DNA from: Nonomuraea jiangxiensis
Lineage (GTDB): Bacteria; Actinomycetota; Actinomycetes; Streptosporangiales; Streptosporangiaceae
Length of the DNA: 64,000 nt
Assembly (NCBI RefSeq): GCF_900099965.1
Contig: NZ_FNDJ01000007.1
Span: 342,995 to 406,994 of the forward strand
Reading direction: 5' to 3'
In this document: positions 456 through 36,020 of the stretch, piece by piece
Position numbering within the stretch: the stretch's first letter is position 1
Layout: each line of letters opens with the position of its first letter
Made by a program: the position numbers and the translations under genes
The notes under the pieces: generated by a model
The model's input: the letters and a program-made list of their open reading frames with translations, nothing else
Told to the model about the DNA's origin: nothing
The model's database searches: none

Positions 456-2939
456 TCAGGCCCTGAGTTCGAGCTCCCGCCGGATGGCCTGCCCCGCCGC
501 GCGGTGCTCGGCGGCGGCGGCCGGGTCCGTCCCGTCGAGGACGGCCGCGATCCCCTCGTGGGCCAGGGCCTCCTTGTGCCGGTAACCCACCTTCGGGGCC
601 AGTTCGAGTGCCTGACGGTGCAGGCGCAGGGCCTCGTCGGGCAGGCCGGCCAGCCGGCAGGTCTCGCCGTACCCGTTGAGGAAGTGAACCTTCCAGTGCT
701 CCTCGAACAGCTCGTCCAGGAGGGCGAACGCCCGCCGGTGGCTGTCCAGCGCCTCCTCGTAGCGGCCCATCTGGCGCAGGGCCACGCCCAGGCAGTTGAG
801 GCACCACGCCTCGTTGTGTCTGTGGCCGTCCTCGCGGGCGACCTCCAGGGCTCGGTGCAGGTGCTCCGCGGCCACGTCCGGTTGCTCGTCGGCGATGGCC
901 ACGCCGAGGGTGATCCGGGCCGTCAGCACGGCCGGCCAGGCGGGCTCGGCGTGCGCGAGATCCAGCACCTCGCGGGCCAGCCGCGCCGCCTCCTCCCTGT
1001 GGCCCAGTTGCAGCATCGCCCAGGCCTCGTACGCGGTCGCATGGGCCGCGCCCATCGGGCACCCGGCCTCCGCGTACAGCTTGCCCGCCAGCCGGAAAAG
1101 GTCGAGTGGCTCCTCGACATAGCCCTGGTCCCACCTCAGGTAGCCCCGGCGCATGACCAGGTCCGCCTCGGAGCGGGTGTCCCCGGCCTGGGACACCAGC
1201 GGTGCCGCCGCCTCGTACGCCGCCCCGGCCTCCGCCATCCGGCCCGCGTTGTAGCGAGCGAAGCCCAGGTCGCTGTGCGCTTCGGCCAGCCGCCACGGGT
1301 CGCCCAGGCGCTGGGCGGCCGACAATGACCGCTCGAACAGCACGTTGAGGTGCGTCGTGCCGCACCGCCTGGCGAAGAACGCCCGCATGAAGCGCGGCAG
1401 CTCGCACGCATGCGCGTCGGCTCCGGCGGCGACCGCCATCTCGAAGGCGCCCATCAGGTTCGTGTACTCCGTGCCGAACCAGCTGAGCGCGGCATGCTTG
1501 TCGGCGAACCGCGGCAGCTCGGCCGGGGCCCGGCCCGCGGAGGCCGCGCGGCTGCCGGACACGTACGGCATGGCGGCGTCGGCGGCGGCCGCGGCGTGTA
1601 CGTAATAGTCGAGCACCCGGCCCAGCGCCTGCTCCCGCTCCTCCGGCGAGTCCTGCTCCGCGGTGGCCCGGCGCGCGTGCTGGTGGACCAGGTCGTGCAG
1701 CGTGTAACGACCGGCCGACGGCTGCTGGACGAGGTGCGCGTCGAGCAGGTCCTCCAGCATCGTCCTGGCACGGCGCAGCGGCACGTCCGCCAGTGCCGCG
1801 GCCACGTATTCGTCGAAGGACGATCCGGACAGCAGGCCCAGCAGCCGGAACAACCGGCGCTCGCCCCGGTCGAGCTGCCGTACGGACATGGCGAACGCGG
1901 TGTCGAACTCGCTCGCGCCCTCCGCCATGCGCTCGACGAGGATGCCCACGGTCCAGCCCGGCCGGTGCCGCAGCCGCGCCCCCGCCAGCCGCAGGGCCAG
2001 CGGCAGATGGCCGCACAACCGCAGCACCTCGGCCGCGGACTCCGGGTCGCGGGCCAGCCGGCCGTCGGGACCCCTGGCGTCGCCACTGGCGCGGGCCAGC
2101 AGCTCCGCGCTCTCCTCCGGGGTCAGTACGTCCAGCGAGACCGGCGGCACCTCCTCCAGGCCCAGCAGCCGGTTACGGCTGGTGATCAGGGCGACGGAGG
2201 CGCCCGCCCCGGGCAGCAGCAGGCGTATCTGGTCAGCGCTCGCGGCATTGTCGAGGACCACGACGGCCCGCCGGCCGGCCAGCTCCGCCCGCCAGCAGGC
2301 GGCCAGGGGCTCGATTCCACCCTCCTGCGGGATCTTCTCCGAGGGCACGTCGAGCGCGGCGAGCAACGCCCGCAGCGCCGGATCGGGATCGAGCGGTTCC
2401 CGCCCGTCGGTGAACCCGTGCAGGTCCAGGTAGAGCTGGGCATCGGGGTAGTCGGCGGCGAGCCGGTGCGCGGCGTGGACCGCCAGACAGGTCTTGCCGA
2501 CGCCCGCCATGCCGTCGATGGCGACCACCCGGTTGCGGTCCACCGCGGCGAGCACGGCGGCGAGCTGGGCCTCACGTCCGGTGAAGTCCGGCACGTCGCG
2601 CGGCAGATCGTTGCGGGGCGGGCGCGGGGCGCCGGCGGGCGGCGACGGGGGCTGGACCTGGCGGCTCGCCTTCGGGGGCGCCGGCAGAGGGCTCGTCGCC
2701 CGTTCCCACAAGGGGCGCAGCGGGCGGGGGTCCCGCTTGACGAGGCGGCAGAGCTCGATCACCACGGGCCAGGGCGCCACCGACTGGCCGTTGAGGTAGC
2801 GCGACAGCGACGACGAGCTGAGCCCCGTGTCCCGCGCCAGAGCTCGTACGCCCCGCCCGGACAACTCCTGGAGCAAGCGCAGCCGGGCCGCCAGTTCGTC
2901 CTGGGGGTCCACCTTCGCCATCCGCTGGTACGCAGCCAC
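456..2939 (-). CDS. XRE/NB-ARC/TPR transcriptional regulator
   Basis: This 827-residue protein has the order of actinomycete STAND-type regulators. Residues ~10-75 are an XRE-like helix-turn-helix (LARDTGLSSSSLSRYLNG). A Pro-rich linker leads to an NB-ARC ATPase whose Walker A motif is GMAGVGKT at about 145 and whose Walker B-like strand is AVVVLDN; the TSRN motif follows. From about 440 to the end is a tetratricopeptide solenoid, with repeats such as AEAHSDLGFARYNAG and NEAWCLNCLGVALRQMGRY. Such proteins bind nucleotide, probably oligomerise on an unknown signal and control nearby genes, often secondary metabolism. The start is GTG at 2939; an ATG six codons later (2921) is an alternative. 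There is no SARP (BTAD) domain, so it is not AfsR itself. The adjacent small membrane protein and the divergent AhpD-like gene are candidate targets. Confidence 0.9.
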   Translation of the reverse strand: MAAYQRMAKVDPQDELAARLRLLQELSGRGVRALARDTGLSSSSLSRYLNGQSVAPWPVVIELCRLVKRDPRPLRPLWERATSPLPAPPKASRQVQPPSPPAGAPRPPRNDLPRDVPDFTGREAQLAAVLAAVDRNRVVAIDGMAGVGKTCLAVHAAHRLAADYPDAQLYLDLHGFTDGREPLDPDPALRALLAALDVPSEKIPQEGGIEPLAACWRAELAGRRAVVVLDNAASADQIRLLLPGAGASVALITSRNRLLGLEEVPPVSLDVLTPEESAELLARASGDARGPDGRLARDPESAAEVLRLCGHLPLALRLAGARLRHRPGWTVGILVERMAEGASEFDTAFAMSVRQLDRGERRLFRLLGLLSGSSFDEYVAAALADVPLRRARTMLEDLLDAHLVQQPSAGRYTLHDLVHQHARRATAEQDSPEEREQALGRVLDYYVHAAAAADAAMPYVSGSRAASAGRAPAELPRFADKHAALSWFGTEYTNLMGAFEMAVAAGADAHACELPRFMRAFFARRCGTTHLNVLFERSLSAAQRLGDPWRLAEAHSDLGFARYNAGRMAEAGAAYEAAAPLVSQAGDTRSEADLVMRRGYLRWDQGYVEEPLDLFRLAGKLYAEAGCPMGAAHATAYEAWAMLQLGHREEAARLAREVLDLAHAEPAWPAVLTARITLGVAIADEQPDVAAEHLHRALEVAREDGHRHNEAWCLNCLGVALRQMGRYEEALDSHRRAFALLDELFEEHWKVHFLNGYGETCRLAGLPDEALRLHRQALELAPKVGYRHKEALAHEGIAAVLDGTDPAAAAEHRAAGQAIRRELELRA

Positions 2940-3115
2940 CGTTTTCGTGCCTCTCTGTCCCGTAGCAGAAGCACTTTACCTGGACGAATCACCGCAGGCC
3001 GAAGCCGTTTCAACTGTCCCACGGTGTCCCACCGTCGTGGCCCTGGCAAGCCCGTGCGGCTGTCATGGAGTCACGCCCCGAGGGACGGGGCGCCGATCCG
3101 GAAGAGGAGAGCACG

Positions 3116-4685: not shown

Positions 4686-4739
4686 ACGGCTCCTGCTGGA
4701 AGGGCCTGTGGGCCATGCGTGAACACCCCCCGCTCAGGG

Positions 4740-4776
4740 GCGTTGGATCGAACGTGCCTGACGCTCGATCCAACGC
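4740..4776. terminator. Bidirectional hairpin between convergent genes
   Basis: A perfect 12-bp inverted repeat (GCGTTGGATCGA at 4740-4751, its complement at 4765-4776) with a 13-nt loop lies between the end of the GNAT gene and the end of the sigma-factor gene. There is no U-tract, as is usual for actinobacterial terminators. Confidence 0.75.
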
Positions 4777-4790
4777 ACCTGGAGGACCGG

Positions 4791-29689: not shown

Positions 29690-30925
29690 TCACGCCTGCC
29701 GGGTGTGGCTGAGGTCGGCGACCGCCTCGACGACATGGTCCACTTCCTCTTCGGTGTTGTAGTAGTGCGGCGACAGGCGCAGGCACCAGTCGATGTCCTT
29801 GTCGCCGAAGTCGAACTGCGCGAAGTGGCGGAAGCTGAGTGCCGAGTTGATCCGGCGTGCGTCCATGGCGGCCTTGAACGGCTCCGGTTGCCAGCCGTCG
29901 ATGGCGAAGGTGACCAGGGCGCCCAGGTGCCGGCCGTGGTCGAGCACGCGGATGCCCGGCAGGTCGGCGAGCCTGTCACGCAGGACTGCGGCCAGGGCTG
30001 GGGTACGGCGGGCGATGGCGTCCATGCCGACCTGGCGGGCGTAGCGTGCGGCCGCGGCGCAGCCGAGGACGATGGCGTAGGGGAACTCCCAGTCCTCGAA
30101 CCTGGCTGCCGTCTCGACGGGCTGGTAGCGGTCCGGCGAGACCCAGCGCGCGCCGTACATGTCGATGAACAGCGGTTCGTAGCCGGCGCGCAGGACGCGG
30201 TCGGATACGTACAGGAAGCCCGAGCCGCGGGGGCCGCGCAGAAACTTGCGGCAGGTGGCGGTGAGCAGGTCGCAGCCGATCTCCGCGACGTCGACGGGGT
30301 ACTGGCCGACCGACTGGCAGGCGTCGACCAGGTACAGCAGGTCCAGTTCGCGGCAGTGCCGGCCGATCTCGGCGACCGGCTGGACCAGGCCGGAGTTGGT
30401 GGGAATGTGGGTGGCGGCCACCAGGCGGGGCCGGTGTTCGCGCATCAGGGCGGCCATCGCCGCCACGTCCACCCCGCCCTCGGGGGCGTCGGGAGCGTGC
30501 ACCACGCGCACGCCGAACCTCTTGCTCAGCGACAGGAAGGCGATCTGGTTGGAGATGAAGTCGTTGCGGGTGGTGAGGATGACGTCACCGGCCTCGAACG
30601 GGATCGCCGACAGGGCGGTGGAGAACGCGTGGGTGGCGCTACCGGCGAACGCGATGTTCTCCGGAGCGCAATTGATCAGCGCGGCGGTCTCGGCGTAGAA
30701 CTCCCGCACCTGATCGGCGCGGGCGGCCGCCGACTCATAACCACCGATGCTCGCCTCGAGTTGGAGGTGGTCGACCATCGCGGTCAGCACCGGCGCGGCC
30801 ATCAAACCGCACCCTGCATTGTTGAAGTGCACGACGTGGTCGGTGCCAGGGGTATCCGCGCGCAGAGCCGCGATGTCCAGAAGCGATTCTGTCAGAATTC
30901 CGGAAGCGCTATTATCCTTATTCAT
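29690..30925 (-). CDS. Class V PLP aminotransferase (isopenicillin-N-epimerase-like)
   Basis: 411 residues with fold type I PLP enzyme features: VHFNNAGCGLMAAPV at the start, FAGSATHAFSTAL (cofactor phosphate region), YLVDACQSVGQYPVDV with the pyridine-N Asp, and the Schiff-base Lys in TATCRKFLRGPRGSGFLY. The family includes cysteine desulfurases, kynureninases and isopenicillin N epimerases; the RGPRG signature suits the epimerase/desulfurase-like branch, but the substrate is unknown. The ATG at 30925 overlaps the start codon of the divergent MocR-type regulator and has no ribosome site, so the mRNA may be leaderless. MocR regulators commonly control a neighbouring PLP enzyme. Confidence 0.9.
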   Translation of the reverse strand: MNKDNSASGILTESLLDIAALRADTPGTDHVVHFNNAGCGLMAAPVLTAMVDHLQLEASIGGYESAAARADQVREFYAETAALINCAPENIAFAGSATHAFSTALSAIPFEAGDVILTTRNDFISNQIAFLSLSKRFGVRVVHAPDAPEGGVDVAAMAALMREHRPRLVAATHIPTNSGLVQPVAEIGRHCRELDLLYLVDACQSVGQYPVDVAEIGCDLLTATCRKFLRGPRGSGFLYVSDRVLRAGYEPLFIDMYGARWVSPDRYQPVETAARFEDWEFPYAIVLGCAAAARYARQVGMDAIARRTPALAAVLRDRLADLPGIRVLDHGRHLGALVTFAIDGWQPEPFKAAMDARRINSALSFRHFAQFDFGDKDIDWCLRLSPHYYNTEEEVDHVVEAVADLSHTRQA

Positions 30926-30936
30926 GCCGAATAGTA
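30910..30936. promoter_or_regulatory. Face-to-face -10 elements of overlapping divergent starts
   Basis: TATTAT at 30910-30915 lies nine bases before the MocR ATG (30924). TACTAT on the other strand (30936-30931) lies five bases before the aminotransferase ATG (30925). Each hexamer is placed so that transcription would begin at or next to the start codon, giving leaderless messages. No good -35 box is seen for either. The local AT content is well above the surroundings. Confidence 0.5.
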
Positions 30937-32336
30937 GCAGTTCTGCTGAGTTGGCCACCAGGATGCGCGCGATGATCGACCGGTTGTCCCCGGGCGACCG
31001 GTTGCCCAGCAGCCGCGAGCTGATCCGGCGCTTCCAGGTCGGCCCCGCGACCGTGTCGCAGGCGATCGCCGTGCTCGCCGCCGAGGGCCTGGTGGTCACC
31101 CGTCCAGGCAGCGGCACGTACGTGGCGGCCCGCGTCCAGCGGCGTGCCGAAGTGGCCGATACCGCCTGGCAGACTGTCACCCTCGCCGATCGGAGCGTGG
31201 ACACCCGCCTCCTCACCGGCACGATCGGCGAGCCACCGGCGGGGACGATCATGTTGGACGGGGGATACCTGCATCGATCGCTCCAGCCCACGCAGATCCT
31301 GACAGCGGCGCTGGCCCGGGCCGCGCGCCGCCCCGACGCCTGGGACCGCGCCCCCGCCGGCGGCCTGGCGGCCCTGCGCAGCGTGTTCGCTGCCATGGCC
31401 GGCGACGGCGTGAGCGCGGACGACATCCTGGTCACCGCCGGCGGGCAGAGCGCCCTGTCCATGGCGTTCCGGGCCATCGCGGCGCCGGGTGACCCCGTCC
31501 TGGTGGAGTCGCCCACCTATCCGGGGGCGATCGCCGCCGCCAGGGCAGCCGGCCTACGCCCGGTACCGGTGCCGATGGATGCCGACGGCCTGCAGCCCGA
31601 CCTCCTGGCCGACGCTTTCGCCATGACCCGCGCCCGGCTGCTGTACTGCCAGCCGACCCATCACAATCCCACCGGCACCACGCTCGCGCCACAACGCCGC
31701 CGGCAGATCGTCGATGCCGCCAGGGCGGCGGGCGCGTTCGTGATCGAGGACGACTTCGCGAGGTACCTCGGCCACGGTACTCCGGTGCCGCCTCCCCTGC
31801 TGGCCGGTGATCGCCATGGCACCGTGGTCCACCTGACCTCGCTCACCAAACCGGCGGCGCCGAGCCTGCGCATCGGCGCCCTGGTGGCCCGTGGCCCGGT
31901 GCTGGAACGCCTGCGCGCCACCCGCCTGGTCGACGACTTCTTCGTCACCCGCCCGCTCCAAGAGGCAGCGCTCGAACTCCTCAGCTCCCCCAACTGGGAA
32001 CGGCATCTCCGTTCTCTGGCCGCAACCCTCCGGGAACGCTGCGCAGCACTGGCGGCCGCCGTCACGCACCAACTTCCGCACTGGACCCTCACCCGCATCC
32101 CCACGGGTGGGCTTCACCTGTGGGTCCGCCTTCCGTACGGCACCGACGACACCGTGGCCGCCGACACGGCCCGTCAGTACGGCGTCGCCGTCAGCGCCGG
32201 TCACCGCTACTTCGCCACCGAACGCCCGGCGGCCTACCTACGCCTCGGCTTCGCCGCCACCGCCGACCGCACGGAGCTGACCGAGGCCGCACGCCGACTC
32301 GCGTCCGCCCACGAGCAGGCCGCCGGCACGCGCTGA
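30924..32336 (+). CDS. MocR-type GntR/aminotransferase regulator
   Basis: 470 residues. An N-terminal GntR winged helix (SPGDRLPSSRELIRRFQVGPATVSQAIAVLAAEGLV) is fused to a fold type I aminotransferase-like domain. The cofactor-binding Lys is seen in LTSLTKPAAPSLRIG, and the substrate/PLP loop is QPTHHNPTGTTL. MocR/PdxR/GabR proteins bind PLP or an amino-acid adduct and act on a divergent gene, here the class V aminotransferase. The ATG at 30924 forms, with the other gene's ATG, the four-base palindrome CATG. Confidence 0.93.
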   Translation: MPNSSSSAELATRMRAMIDRLSPGDRLPSSRELIRRFQVGPATVSQAIAVLAAEGLVVTRPGSGTYVAARVQRRAEVADTAWQTVTLADRSVDTRLLTGTIGEPPAGTIMLDGGYLHRSLQPTQILTAALARAARRPDAWDRAPAGGLAALRSVFAAMAGDGVSADDILVTAGGQSALSMAFRAIAAPGDPVLVESPTYPGAIAAARAAGLRPVPVPMDADGLQPDLLADAFAMTRARLLYCQPTHHNPTGTTLAPQRRRQIVDAARAAGAFVIEDDFARYLGHGTPVPPPLLAGDRHGTVVHLTSLTKPAAPSLRIGALVARGPVLERLRATRLVDDFFVTRPLQEAALELLSSPNWERHLRSLAATLRERCAALAAAVTHQLPHWTLTRIPTGGLHLWVRLPYGTDDTVAADTARQYGVAVSAGHRYFATERPAAYLRLGFAATADRTELTEAARRLASAHEQAAGTR

Positions 32337-32601: not shown

Positions 32602-33804
32602 TCAGGTCAATATGTCGGAGCTACGGGGCGTTTGCCCGGCACGTGTGCCGTTCGCGACAGTCAGCGTGGCAGCGGCCAGCATCAGTACGGCGGCCAGGTG
32701 CGGCAGGTGGGCCGCGCCCCACCCTTCGAGTGCCAACGCCCCCGCCCCTCCCGACAGCGACACGGCGAGGTAGAGGGCGGACTGGTAGAGCGAAGTGATC
32801 AGGCCGGAGCCGGGTCCGGCCAGGGTGATGAGGAGGTGCTGCTGCGGTGTCGTGACCGAGAAGGACAGGAATCCGACGATCATGATGATCGCGACAGCCG
32901 CCCCGAGAGTGCCGCGGCCCAGTGGGGTGAGGGCGAAGGCCGCGGCCAGGATCAGCGTCACGGCCACGATCACGCGGCGGGGGCCGTACCGGTCGGCCAG
33001 GTGCCCGGCGGTGAGGTTGCCCACCGTCCCGGACAGGCCGTAGACCAGCAGCAGGACGGCCAGGCCCGAAGTACCCGCGTACGCGGGGGCGAAGACCTCG
33101 CTGACGTAGGTGTAGGGAATGTAGATGCCGGTGAAGGCCACCACGGTGGTGACCAGCAGGCCGACGATCCGCCGGTTGCGCAGCGGCGCCAGGAACGCGC
33201 GCAGGTCGCCGTTGCCCTGCCCGGTGGCCGAGGGCAGGCGGAGCCCGATGGCGGGGGCGGCGACCAGGGCGAGCGCGGTGACGAGCCACATCGCGGCCCG
33301 CCAGTCGGCCAGGCCGCCGATCAGCGTGCCGAGTGGTGCTCCGAGGACCAGTGCGGTGGTCACGCCGAGCATCACGATGGAGATCGCGCGGCCGCGTTCT
33401 CGGTCTCCCGCCAGAAGTGCCGCTGTCGCGCTGGCGGTCGCGGTGAACAGCGCGGCCCCGGCGGCGGCGACCACTCTGGAGGCCAGGACCAGGTCGTACG
33501 AGGGGGCCAGCGCGGTGATCGCGTTGCCTGCCGCGAACACCGCCAGCGCGGTGACGAGCACCCTTCTGCGCGGCCACGAGGCGGTCAGGGCGGCCAGCAC
33601 CGGTGCGAGCACCGCGTAGGAGATGGAGAACACCGTCACAAGCTGGCCGGCCGCGGCCACGCTGACGTGCAGTGACGTGGCGATGGAGGGCAGCAGGCCG
33701 GCGACGACGAAGCCGTCGGTGCCGACGGCGAAGGCGCCGAAGGCCAGGACCGCGGTGTGGGGGCGCCAGCGTACTGGGGCTTCGGTATGTGTAGGTGACG
33801 TCAT
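32602..33804 (-). CDS. MFS drug-efflux transporter (DHA1, AraJ/Cmx-like)
   Basis: 400 residues with 12 hydrophobic helices. Features of the DHA1 family are AVGTDGFVVAGLLPSIA in helix 1, the loop-2 region LTASWPRRRVLV and the second-half signature GNLTAGHLADRYGPRRV. Such proteins export sugars or antibiotics such as chloramphenicol. ATG 33804 follows GGAAGAG. The gene is divergent from an ArsR-family repressor, with operator-like repeats between, so expression is probably induced by a ligand or metal of that repressor. Confidence 0.92.
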   Translation of the reverse strand: MTSPTHTEAPVRWRPHTAVLAFGAFAVGTDGFVVAGLLPSIATSLHVSVAAAGQLVTVFSISYAVLAPVLAALTASWPRRRVLVTALAVFAAGNAITALAPSYDLVLASRVVAAAGAALFTATASATAALLAGDRERGRAISIVMLGVTTALVLGAPLGTLIGGLADWRAAMWLVTALALVAAPAIGLRLPSATGQGNGDLRAFLAPLRNRRIVGLLVTTVVAFTGIYIPYTYVSEVFAPAYAGTSGLAVLLLVYGLSGTVGNLTAGHLADRYGPRRVIVAVTLILAAAFALTPLGRGTLGAAVAIIMIVGFLSFSVTTPQQHLLITLAGPGSGLITSLYQSALYLAVSLSGGAGALALEGWGAAHLPHLAAVLMLAAATLTVANGTRAGQTPRSSDILT

Positions 33805-33820
33805 GACACTCTTCCGATGC

Positions 33821-33873
33821 GTATCGGTAATTACGATGCTAATCGTAATATTGCTCCGACGGGTATCGTAATA
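33821..33873. promoter_or_regulatory. ArsR-type operator cluster
   Basis: A perfect inverted repeat of ATTACGAT with a 4-nt spacer (33830-33849) is flanked by two more half-sites: GTATCGGTAAT at 33821 and TATCGTAATA at 33864. The cluster is AT-rich and lies between the MFS and ArsR starts, as expected for an operator of both. Confidence 0.75.
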
Positions 33874-33907
33874 GCTGTCGTCATCGGACATGTCGAGGGG
33901 GGAAGCG

Positions 33908-34222
33908 ATGCAGACCTGGATGGGGCAGCCCGACCTCGACGAGATCGACGTGGCCACGGTGCTGCAGGCGCTGGCCGATCCGATGCGACTGCGCATCGTC
34001 CGGCTGCTCGACCAGGTTGAGGAGTCCACCTGTACGGCGCTCGATCTGCCGGTGAAGGTATCGACGGTGTCACACCACGTCAACGTCCTGCGCCACAGCG
34101 GCGTGGTCTCCACCAGAATCGAGGGCACCGCCCGGCCCAGTCGCCTACGCCGCGACGATCTGGAGCGCCGCTTCCCCGGCCTGCTGTCCTCCATTCTCGC
34201 GGCCACCCCGCCGAAGGCGTAG
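33908..34222 (+). CDS. ArsR-family transcriptional repressor
   Basis: 104 residues with an ArsR winged helix: VLQALADPMRLRIVRLLDQ, then LPVKVSTVSHHVNVLRHSGVVSTRIEGTARP. The N-terminal region has no metal-binding ELCVCDL-type motif; only one Cys is present (ESTCTAL). It is therefore probably a non-metal or redox-type ArsR. ATG 33908 is preferred (ggggggaa just upstream) over 33890. It is divergent from the MFS transporter and probably represses it. Confidence 0.93.
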   Translation: MQTWMGQPDLDEIDVATVLQALADPMRLRIVRLLDQVEESTCTALDLPVKVSTVSHHVNVLRHSGVVSTRIEGTARPSRLRRDDLERRFPGLLSSILAATPPKA

Positions 34223-34428: not shown

Positions 34429-35306
34429 GTTTCAGAAGTGGTGGCCTCATAGCCAGGTGTCGATCACGGCGATGTGGACGGTGGCTTCGTAGCGAACGGC
34501 AAGCTTGTCGTAACGGGTAGCCACCACTCGGTAGCCCTTGAGTCTGTTGATGCCGCATTCCACCGCATGGCGCAGCTTGTACGCCTCGGAGTCGAACGCC
34601 GGTGGCCGGCCGCCCTGGGACCCCTTCCTGCGCCGGGCGGCGGCTTGGTCCAGCTTGATCGGGATGGTGGCCTTGATGCCGCGCCTGCGCAGGTAACGGC
34701 GATTGCCACGCGAGCTGCAGGCCTTATCGGCCAGCACCCGGTGCGGCCGGGTACGGGGCCGACCCCCGCCAAGACGTGGCACCCGGATGCCCTCCAAGAC
34801 CGCCGTGAATTGCGGGCTGTCACCACGCTGCCCGGCCGTCAGCACGATCGACAGCGCCCTACGGCCCTGCTCGGTGGCCAGGTGCAGCTTGGTGCTCAAG
34901 CCACCACGGGAACGCCCCAGCCCGTGATCGGCCGGCTCCTCCCGCACACCGCCCGGCGACTCCACCTGCAGATCCCCCTTTTCCGCGCCCCGGCGGCGTG
35001 CTGATGGGCCCGGCAGACGCTGGAGTCGACACTCACATCCCAGCCGATCAGCCCGGCCGCGTCCGCCCGAGCCTGCAAGACGGTCAGGACCTGCTGCCAG
35101 ATGCCGGCACGCTGCCAACGCCGGAACAATCCGTAGATCGTCTGCCGGCACCCGTACCGCTCCGGCACGTTCCGCCACGGCGCACCCACCCGCACCCGCC
35201 ACCGGATCCCATCGATGAGCTGCCGTTTCGTCCAAATCGACGGGCGCCCCGACCTCCGGCCCACGGGCAGCAGCGGCTCCAGCACCGCCCACTGGGGTGT
35301 TCGCGA
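34429..35306 (-). mobile_element. IS5-family insertion element (IS427-like), truncated
   Basis: The element carries one transposase split in two frames. The left edge lies where the MOSC gene breaks. At the right edge the transposase loses its N-terminus at GGGTGTTCGCGA (35295-35306). No matching terminal inverted repeats were found at these two edges, so the right end is probably truncated. Confidence 0.75.
34447..35294 (-). pseudogene. IS5-type DDE transposase, two frames
   Basis: The first frame (35294 to about 34900) gives QWAVLEPLLPVGRRSGRP, TKRQLIDGIRWRVRVGAPWRNVPERYG and DVSVDSSVCRAHQHAAGARKRG, including the first DDE Asp. In the -1 frame the protein continues DLQVESPGGVREEPADHGLGRSRGG, then RPHRVLADKACSSRGNRRYL (second Asp) and AVECGINRLKGYR (Glu) to the stop at 34447. 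The frames meet at an A4G5 tract, where -1 slippage is expected in the IS427 subgroup. The N-terminal ~10 residues of family members are missing. Confidence 0.8.
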
Positions 35307-35354
35307 GTACCCATGAGCTAGACCGATACGGCCAACTGAAGATCGCTTCCCGCC

Positions 35355-36020
35355 TCACCGAAGATCGTTTCCCGCCGCCTCGGCCCTTGAGGCCCGCCGC
35401 CGTACGCGCAGGAAACGGGCAATCACGAGGCCGACAGCCACAGCGGCCGCCGTCCACACGACCCACTGCCCGATGTTCCTGAGCACATCGTTCCTGCCCG
35501 GTGGCAGCACGGCCATCTGGACGGCCGCGCCGACCGGCACGGTCAGCCGGGCGAGCACACCGATCACTCCCGGATGCCCAGCGCAGGCTCCGATGGCACC
35601 GAGTACCGGACCGAACAAGGCGCTCGCCACCCACCAGTAGACCGTGTCGTGGACGTAGGAGCCGGATGAGACGTCGTGGACGATCGTGTCGGCGATGTAG
35701 TAGGTAGCGGTGGCGGCGAGCAAGGCCACCACGCCGACGACGGCGCCCCGCGCCAGGCGGCGGCCCGTGAGAACGCCCCCTTGACCACGGGTGGCCCGCC
35801 ATCCCGCCAGCACCCCCAGTCCCGCCCATGCCCAGCCGGCGTCCAGCAGGATGCTGACGATCTCCATGATCGACCACCCTCGGATGGTGGCCTCGGCGCT
35901 TTCCAGATCCACGGTCAGAGTGGCCGCGGCGTTGGCCAGCGAGGTGGCGGCGCCGAATACCGCGCCGACGGCCAGGGCGCTCAGCAGGGAGATGAAGCTG
36001 GGCCGCGGGATGGTGGTCAT
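35355..36020 (-). CDS. Membrane protein (DUF6518-like)
   Basis: 221 residues with about six hydrophobic helices: FISLLSALAVGAVFGAATSLAN, EIVSILLDAGWAWAGLGVLAGW, ARGAVVGVVALLAATATYYIAD, then WWVASALFGPVLGAIGACA. The tail is basic. This resembles the DUF6518 family of actinobacterial membrane proteins; no function is known. ATG 36020 is where the hydrophobic pattern begins; the frame stays open 41 codons further upstream. Confidence 0.75.
   Translation of the reverse strand: MTTIPRPSFISLLSALAVGAVFGAATSLANAAATLTVDLESAEATIRGWSIMEIVSILLDAGWAWAGLGVLAGWRATRGQGGVLTGRRLARGAVVGVVALLAATATYYIADTIVHDVSSGSYVHDTVYWWVASALFGPVLGAIGACAGHPGVIGVLARLTVPVGAAVQMAVLPPGRNDVLRNIGQWVVWTAAAVAVGLVIARFLRVRRRASRAEAAGNDLR

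Follow-up and report, generated by a model that had tools for sequence, protein, structure and literature searches.

Among the closest described counterparts of the locus reported here are the three-box MocR divergons surveyed by Suvorova and Rodionov (2016, PMC5320631). According to the excerpts of that survey available to us, these share with our locus a regulator that joins a GntR domain to an aminotransferase fold, a divergently-transcribed partner gene, the order of the boxes, and their constant spacing; a layout of two direct boxes and one inverted box is the commonest among the MocR operators described (245 of 761 regulons). The YczR-YczE divergons of Actinobacteria (Milano et al. 2016, PMC4944035) similarly combine, in the excerpted text, a MocR regulator and a divergent membrane protein gene with direct and inverted repeats. 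On the promoter side, the available part of a report on bidirectional promoters (Warman et al. 2026, PMC12825309) describes a single site with two mutually exclusive polymerase orientations, and the excerpted account of Mycobacterium tuberculosis prpD and its regulator (Cortes et al. 2013, PMC3898074) presents a divergent pair in which both regulator and target are leaderless.

The locus of interest lies in a 64,000-nt stretch of Nonomuraea jiangxiensis DNA (hereafter, the window), and consists of two genes that diverge from a single CATG palindrome. On the minus strand, a 411-aa frame (29690–30925) starts at ATG 30925–30923, ends at 29690, and encodes a class V PLP-dependent enzyme (PF00266, E 1e-49). 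On the plus strand, a 470-aa frame (30924–32336) starts at ATG 30924–30926, ends at 32336, and encodes a MocR-type regulator: it carries an N-terminal GntR winged helix (PF00392, residues 9–67) and a C-terminal class I aminotransferase-like domain (PF00155, residues 144–459), both above cut-off. The two genes overlap by 2 bp at their starts, leaving no intergenic DNA, and the entire control module spans about 65 bp (30878–30943). With fair confidence, we read this anatomy as a leaderless, face-to-face promoter pair whose -10 elements lie inside a MocR operator, through which the regulator would probably shut both genes.

More precise names for the two proteins were tried and rejected. The regulator falls short of the curated cut-offs for both PdxR (NF052282; 241.5 bits vs 320) and YczR (NF052290; 239.4 bits vs 487.4); by likeness to other MocRs, we take SLTKPAAPSLRIG to contain its candidate PLP lysine. 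The best-scoring solved chains for the enzyme are cysteine desulfurases. The catalytic cysteine of class V cysteine desulfurases lies in an HCA loop; the HCA of 6wci and 5b7s aligns with HFA (RHFAQ) in the enzyme. Since Phe stands opposite the loop Cys in both alignments, cysteine desulfurase activity is unlikely. A match to EgtE (TIGR04343) reached 154.5 bits, against a cut-off of 400.

The flanks of the pair were compared across 12 relatives, and those in the window found no counterpart (only flanks were compared, an all-frame comparison around the pair being spoiled by antisense frames). In five of the 12 (L009, L010, L012, L013 and L018), the enzyme gene is accompanied on the same strand by what we take to be an MFS-like transporter frame, with which it perhaps forms an operon. 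Within the window, positions 32602–34222 presumably hold an MFS-like gene (minus) that lies close and head to head with an ArsR-like regulator gene (plus, ATG 33890), and the overlapping frames at 34447–35877 look to us like an IS5-type transposase, perhaps broken.

Each gene has a TANNNT hexamer close to its start codon. The MocR gene promoter (CGC-TATTAT, CGNTANNNT; 30907–30915, plus) carries its hexamer TATTAT at 30910–30915, 8 nt before the ATG, while the enzyme gene promoter (TGC-TACTAT, an extended -10, TGNTANNNT; 30931–30939, minus) carries TACTAT at 30936–30931, 5 nt before the ATG. The two -10s face each other across 15 bp. The first T of TANNNT lies 14 bp (plus) and 11 bp (minus) from the start codon, in keeping with the placement given for leaderless genes in the available part of PMC3160421 (first T ~12 bp upstream of the start codon). 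In M. tuberculosis, the excerpted text of PMC3898074 reports TANNNT centred 7–12 bp upstream of 73% of primary starts, part of the motifs being preceded by CGN or TGN, and initiation that favours a purine, most often between C at -1 and T at +2. The palindrome at 30923–30926 reads C-A-T on both strands; it supplies two start codons and, presumably, the initiator of both promoters. Over 116 distinct homologous rows, the window's own (L059) among them, the interval 4–16 nt upstream of each start holds no SD-like 4-mer. A scan for sigma-70 two-hexamer promoters returned nothing, and there is no TTGACA-like -35; such a scan is uninformative for TANNNT promoters. The initial annotation had described a divergent MocR/PLP-enzyme pair with start codons in a common CATG, facing -10-like hexamers near the ATGs and an absence of ribosome sites, all of which we find as claimed. 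Its proposals of leaderless starts and overlapping promoters likewise gain support, the former from the conserved TANNNT at leaderless distance, the absence of SD-like sequences and the conserved CATG, which together point to leaderless starts.

The shared-start arrangement is far from chance. The window has 233 CATGs, and no other is flanked on both strands by TANNNT at 4–9 nt; in 100 random first-order windows matched in composition, such CATGs numbered 0.02 on average, with at least one in 2 of the 100. The pattern TANNNT-N7-CATG-N4-ANNNTA matches the 11.8-Mb own genome twice (reversed control: 0). The second match is the start of a paralogous MocR gene (52% identity), with an EamA relative on the opposite strand.

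Superimposed on the two promoters is a set of repeated boxes. Box L (GAAGCGCTATTATC; 30903–30916, plus) lies over the MocR -10, and is inverted, around 30923, relative to box R (GAACTGCTACTATT; 30930–30943, minus), which lies over the enzyme gene's -10 and within the MocR codons. Box D (GAAGCGATTC; 30880–30889, plus), contained in CAGAAGCGATTCTG at 30878–30891, is a direct repeat of L at a distance of 23 bp and occupies the -35 region of the MocR promoter; it keeps this 23-bp register yet has no TANNNT. The window's boxes contain neither TGT nor TGG, one or other of which is present in most MocR motifs of the excerpted survey (PMC5320631); TACTGT occurs in the R boxes of many relatives. Upstream of the enzyme gene's promoter no repeat box was found, unlike in classical MocR activation.

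The repeat geometry holds across relatives. The L/R dyad around 30923 averages 11.7 of 18 identities (next best offset, 7.0), and the D/L direct repeat at 23 bp averages 9.2 of 18 (at most 6.2 for other spacings). Both are best in all five groups of homologues, narrowly in one; margins are slight in the six-row group from other classes (dyad, 8.5 vs 8.0; direct repeat, 6.5 vs 6.3). In shuffles that ignore relatedness, the agreement of L with R exceeds all 5000, the weaker agreement of D with L is equalled by 35 of 5000, and that of D with R is equalled by 920 of 5000 and is not significant. Furthermore, L and R both read GTTA instead of GCTA in 11 of the 116 rows, and only one of them does so in 5; three lineages supply the double changes, namely a section of the enzyme-paired clade, L136, and family f58. 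Five rows of that family, which lies outside the class (L192–L196), carry TAACGTTA instead of TAGCGCTA in L and GTTA in R. A regulon search of the own genome with GWAVYGYTAYTNT gave three matches, compared with six for the reversed control; two of the three are L and R themselves. The third (C18:213340) was rejected as a further target: it lies within a 303-aa frame that we take to be tatC, and the reversed control exceeds the matches.

Within the family, 37 of 341 genomes, among them the own genome, carry relatives of the PLP enzyme (75–100% identity, E up to 1e-120); two genomes of another family within the class have them too, as do named genomes of Nonomuraea, Planotetraspora, Streptosporangium and Kribbella. 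For the next-best 22 enzyme matches of the class search (43–48%), MocR is absent from the available flanking DNA. Merging of identical 120-nt start regions left 42 rows: 38 with both genes, one with MocR alone (L020), and three with the enzyme alone (L064, L076 and L084; the DNA of L084 breaks off some 70 bases from where the enzyme gene starts). Not counted among these 42 are the separated MocR copies L124 (a repeat of L020), L125 and L126. CATG is present in all 42 distinct start regions of the pair. In the plus hexamer, T at -14 and A at -13 are present in 42/42 rows and T at -9 in 41/42; the minus promoter retains the T, A and T of TANNNT, plus the TG, in 42/42. Both hexamers keep a fixed spacing throughout the 42 rows, a single row having one altered hexamer base. 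Over all groups, CATG is found in 116/116 rows, six of which (L191–L196) were picked by a pattern containing CATG and are no test of it; the A of the plus hexamer is missing in five (L142, L146, L147, L149 and L150). The columns kept in at least 97% of the 116 rows are those of GNTANNNT and CATG, for which the promoters alone could account.

Conservation also extends to positions where the encoded proteins do not call for it. A or T fills the wobble position of enzyme codons 5, 7 and 13 and of MocR codons 4 and 6 in all 42 rows, four of which lack one of the frames; the wobble base of enzyme codon 13, which lies in box D, is invariant. Past codon 18, A/T wobble averages 5.6% in the enzyme genes and 8.9% in the MocR genes, and no position there reaches 95%. 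Bases that are rare beyond codon 18 are thus constant in the start region: selection acts on the DNA and not on the peptide alone. These start-region statistics are anchored column counts rather than codon statistics with tblastn-placed starts, because indels dilute the first codons under the latter.

Three genomes in which the pair has come apart provide a further view of the boxes: L and R are recognisable at both genes. Planotetraspora kaengkrachanensis (L020) has the enzyme gene downstream of MocR, with a separate D-L-CATG-R segment for each, so that the segment occurs twice (2900–3010 and 4690–4780). Genomes G574 and G416 carry the likely MocR orthologue (66% and 63%, respectively) on another contig; the separated genes have kept R, and L is recognisable but has one otherwise nearly invariant base altered in L125, L126 and L084. 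In L125 and L126, box L is without the G at -16. The MocR start of G574 (L125) is GTG rather than ATG, and so CATG is lost there. Boxes likewise persist in L076 and L020, where a frame is gone. A box that outlives its role as a promoter in this way points to an operator.

The module extends well beyond the enzyme-paired regulators. We examined (i) the 28 best MocR matches with a locus, the own genome and L030 excepted (L031–L058), and (ii) 40 chosen from among the further listed MocR matches, at 40–54% identity in one search and 37–52% in another (L134–L173). CATG together with at least five of six hexamer bases, at the fixed spacing, was found in 28/28 homologues at 53–58% identity, 20/20 at 46–52%, and 20/20 at 37–44%; both hexamers are complete in 63 of the 68, with one base altered in the other five. 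For L134–L173, an in-frame CATG lies within 45 nt of the aligned start in 37/40, and in 40/40 once the interval was widened to -90..+30 and the best-scoring CATG taken. Among more distant MocRs (32–39% identity), none of 10 has the module. A search of 396 genomes from the phylum with a strict module pattern, which misses the window's own module, gave 23 matches, against none for the reversed control. Every match is a MocR start, 22 of them with an EamA relative on the opposite strand; the remaining one (L196) faces an 85-aa frame without any match. Six of the 23 belong to families f58 and f87, outside the class.

In the 68 homologues, the partner frame is EamA-like in 57 (Pfam EamA was confirmed for the two tested) and a short leader frame in 11. 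A tree of the first 230 MocR residues (96 rows, midpoint root; two short rows dropped, and the enzyme-paired group thinned to 22) places the PLP-enzyme-paired MocRs in one clade (100/99) inside an otherwise EamA-paired group (99/94). These results indicate that the module stayed while the partner gene was exchanged. The 11 leader frames, all from family f17 (L137–L141, L143, L145, L148, L151–L153), are 27–59 aa long, and in each the stop overlaps the start of the next frame by 4 or 8 nt. That following frame (42–96 aa) has a hydrophobic stretch and the sequence GPDTRD (GPDSRD in L152); the two small frames tested reached no Pfam family at cut-off, and the one tested against NCBIfam gave no match. 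Possibly, the f17 frames amount to a leaderless, translationally-coupled small membrane protein. Since the overlap of stop and start is maintained despite variable leader length, it can be argued that the minus ATG is really translated. Finally, unrelated partners begin alike: M-xxx-[NDS]-S-A, which is box L in translation, opens 27/42 enzyme rows and 59/68 of the others.

The anatomy, its conservation, the repeat geometry, the constraint beyond coding and the exchange of partners can be read directly from the sequences; from them we infer the following mechanism. Two face-to-face promoters, each with its own TANNNT, would start transcription within 1–2 bases of each other at CATG, the palindrome serving as start codon and initiator on both strands; with starts at CATG, both mRNAs would be leaderless (the plus-side spacer of 8 nt would also allow a start 1–2 nt before the ATG). 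The MocR protein would bind D, L and R, that is, two direct boxes and one inverted. As L and R contain both -10s, bound MocR would block its own gene and the partner gene alike, and a PLP-linked ligand would presumably alter MocR binding and release both. We prefer double repression over activation because of the lack of a repeat upstream of the enzyme gene's promoter. Mutual exclusion of polymerases is expected from the geometry only; the conservation can be explained without it, and it may be inactive at basal level.

Could the polymerases suffice by themselves? The initial annotation had proposed a switch without any further operator, in which polymerases exclude each other; the repeats would then simply be two promoter copies. 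Both -10s are indeed conserved and facing, 15 bp apart, and the footprint of a polymerase on one -10 would cover the other. However, box D has no TANNNT and nevertheless keeps its register and its rare wobble bases, separated genes retain a box that they do not need as a promoter, and at five E. coli bidirectional promoters basal transcription is too low for polymerase competition, according to the excerpted report (PMC12825309). We therefore consider competition on its own improbable. The claim that no further operator exists is not supported: the conservation of D, L and R extends to wobble positions in the two genes, changes in L and R are paired, and boxes persist where genes have separated. 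It is somewhat easier to imagine, albeit still unlikely, that the boxes are elements of an alternative sigma factor or other general promoter elements rather than MocR sites. The nearly invariant columns are precisely GNTANNNT and CATG, and TGN and CGN before TANNNT are among the mycobacterial promoter features in the consulted part of PMC3898074; against this, the strict pattern matches MocR starts alone (23/23), L and R drift jointly within lineages, and D has no -10. Both regions are translated, and it might be supposed that N-terminal peptides are kept for protein function and the DNA pattern merely follows. This we find barely credible, given invariant A/T wobble bases that are otherwise rare, a common M-xxx-[NDS]-S-A start in unrelated partners, and boxes that survive without a frame in L076 and L020.

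Two alternatives concern how the genes are read and regulated. The plus spacer is long (8 nt), as might be expected if the transcripts were leadered and came from farther promoters, or if translation began at internal starts and CATG were unused. The absence of SD-like 4-mers on either side in 116/116 rows, and the 11/11 f17 leaders that end on the following start codon whatever their length, make this very improbable. A doubtful but realistic alternative is the classical MocR divergon in the style of GabR or PdxR, with self-repression, activation of the partner, and a ligand that chooses between direct and inverted boxes. Here, the identical three-box order and divergent partner fit, as does the shift of PdxR between direct and inverted repeats with PLP described in the excerpts of PMC5320631. 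Yet, relative to the start of the enzyme gene, D and L are on the downstream side, with no repeat found upstream of its promoter, so that contact with polymerase would be unusual. Repression of both genes from boxes that contain both -10s thus remains our preferred reading.

More broadly, we are inclined to see here a portable, phylum-wide module, in which a shared start palindrome would combine three roles, as translation start and as transcription initiator of either strand and as midpoint of the regulator's operator, regulatory DNA would dictate the first residues of unrelated proteins, and the partner would be exchangeable (EamA transporter, PLP enzyme, or leader peptide plus small membrane protein). 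Protein-coding DNA here doubles as control DNA, in an arrangement that recurs in many relatives with differing partner genes. The module is small enough for complete testing, and raises the question of the extent to which a single site can serve both polymerase competition and a repressor. Natural experiments are on offer in the form of separated genes, exchanged partners and paired L/R changes, the last of which could reveal which MocR residues read which bases. Searches of an open-access library gave us no description of MocR divergons with a shared start codon, which is no proof of absence, and no papers joining MocR, EamA and a divergent arrangement.

Set beside the known systems, taken as their excerpted reports describe them, the locus departs from each in a particular way. 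In M. tuberculosis, no shared start codon is described for the prpD pair (PMC3898074). In bidirectional promoters of the Warman/Grainger type, starts are most often 18, and also 10 or 23, bp apart (PMC12825309); here they would coincide at CATG. Symmetric -10s are present at the locus but face inward, and each promoter would lie within the other gene's transcribed DNA. YczR-YczE divergons have 27–274 bp of intergenic DNA, the motif GGCCA/TGGCC, and YczE rather than EamA or a PLP enzyme as partner (PMC4944035). In the same report, the uniqueness of the YczR motif was checked in noncoding regions only; operator searches restricted in this way to intergenic or noncoding DNA would miss the present module, because its boxes lie in coding sequence. 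Finally, in contrast to the three-box divergons of PMC5320631, the boxes here are inside both coding sequences, a 2-bp gene overlap replaces the intergenic region, and both -10s are covered by L and R.
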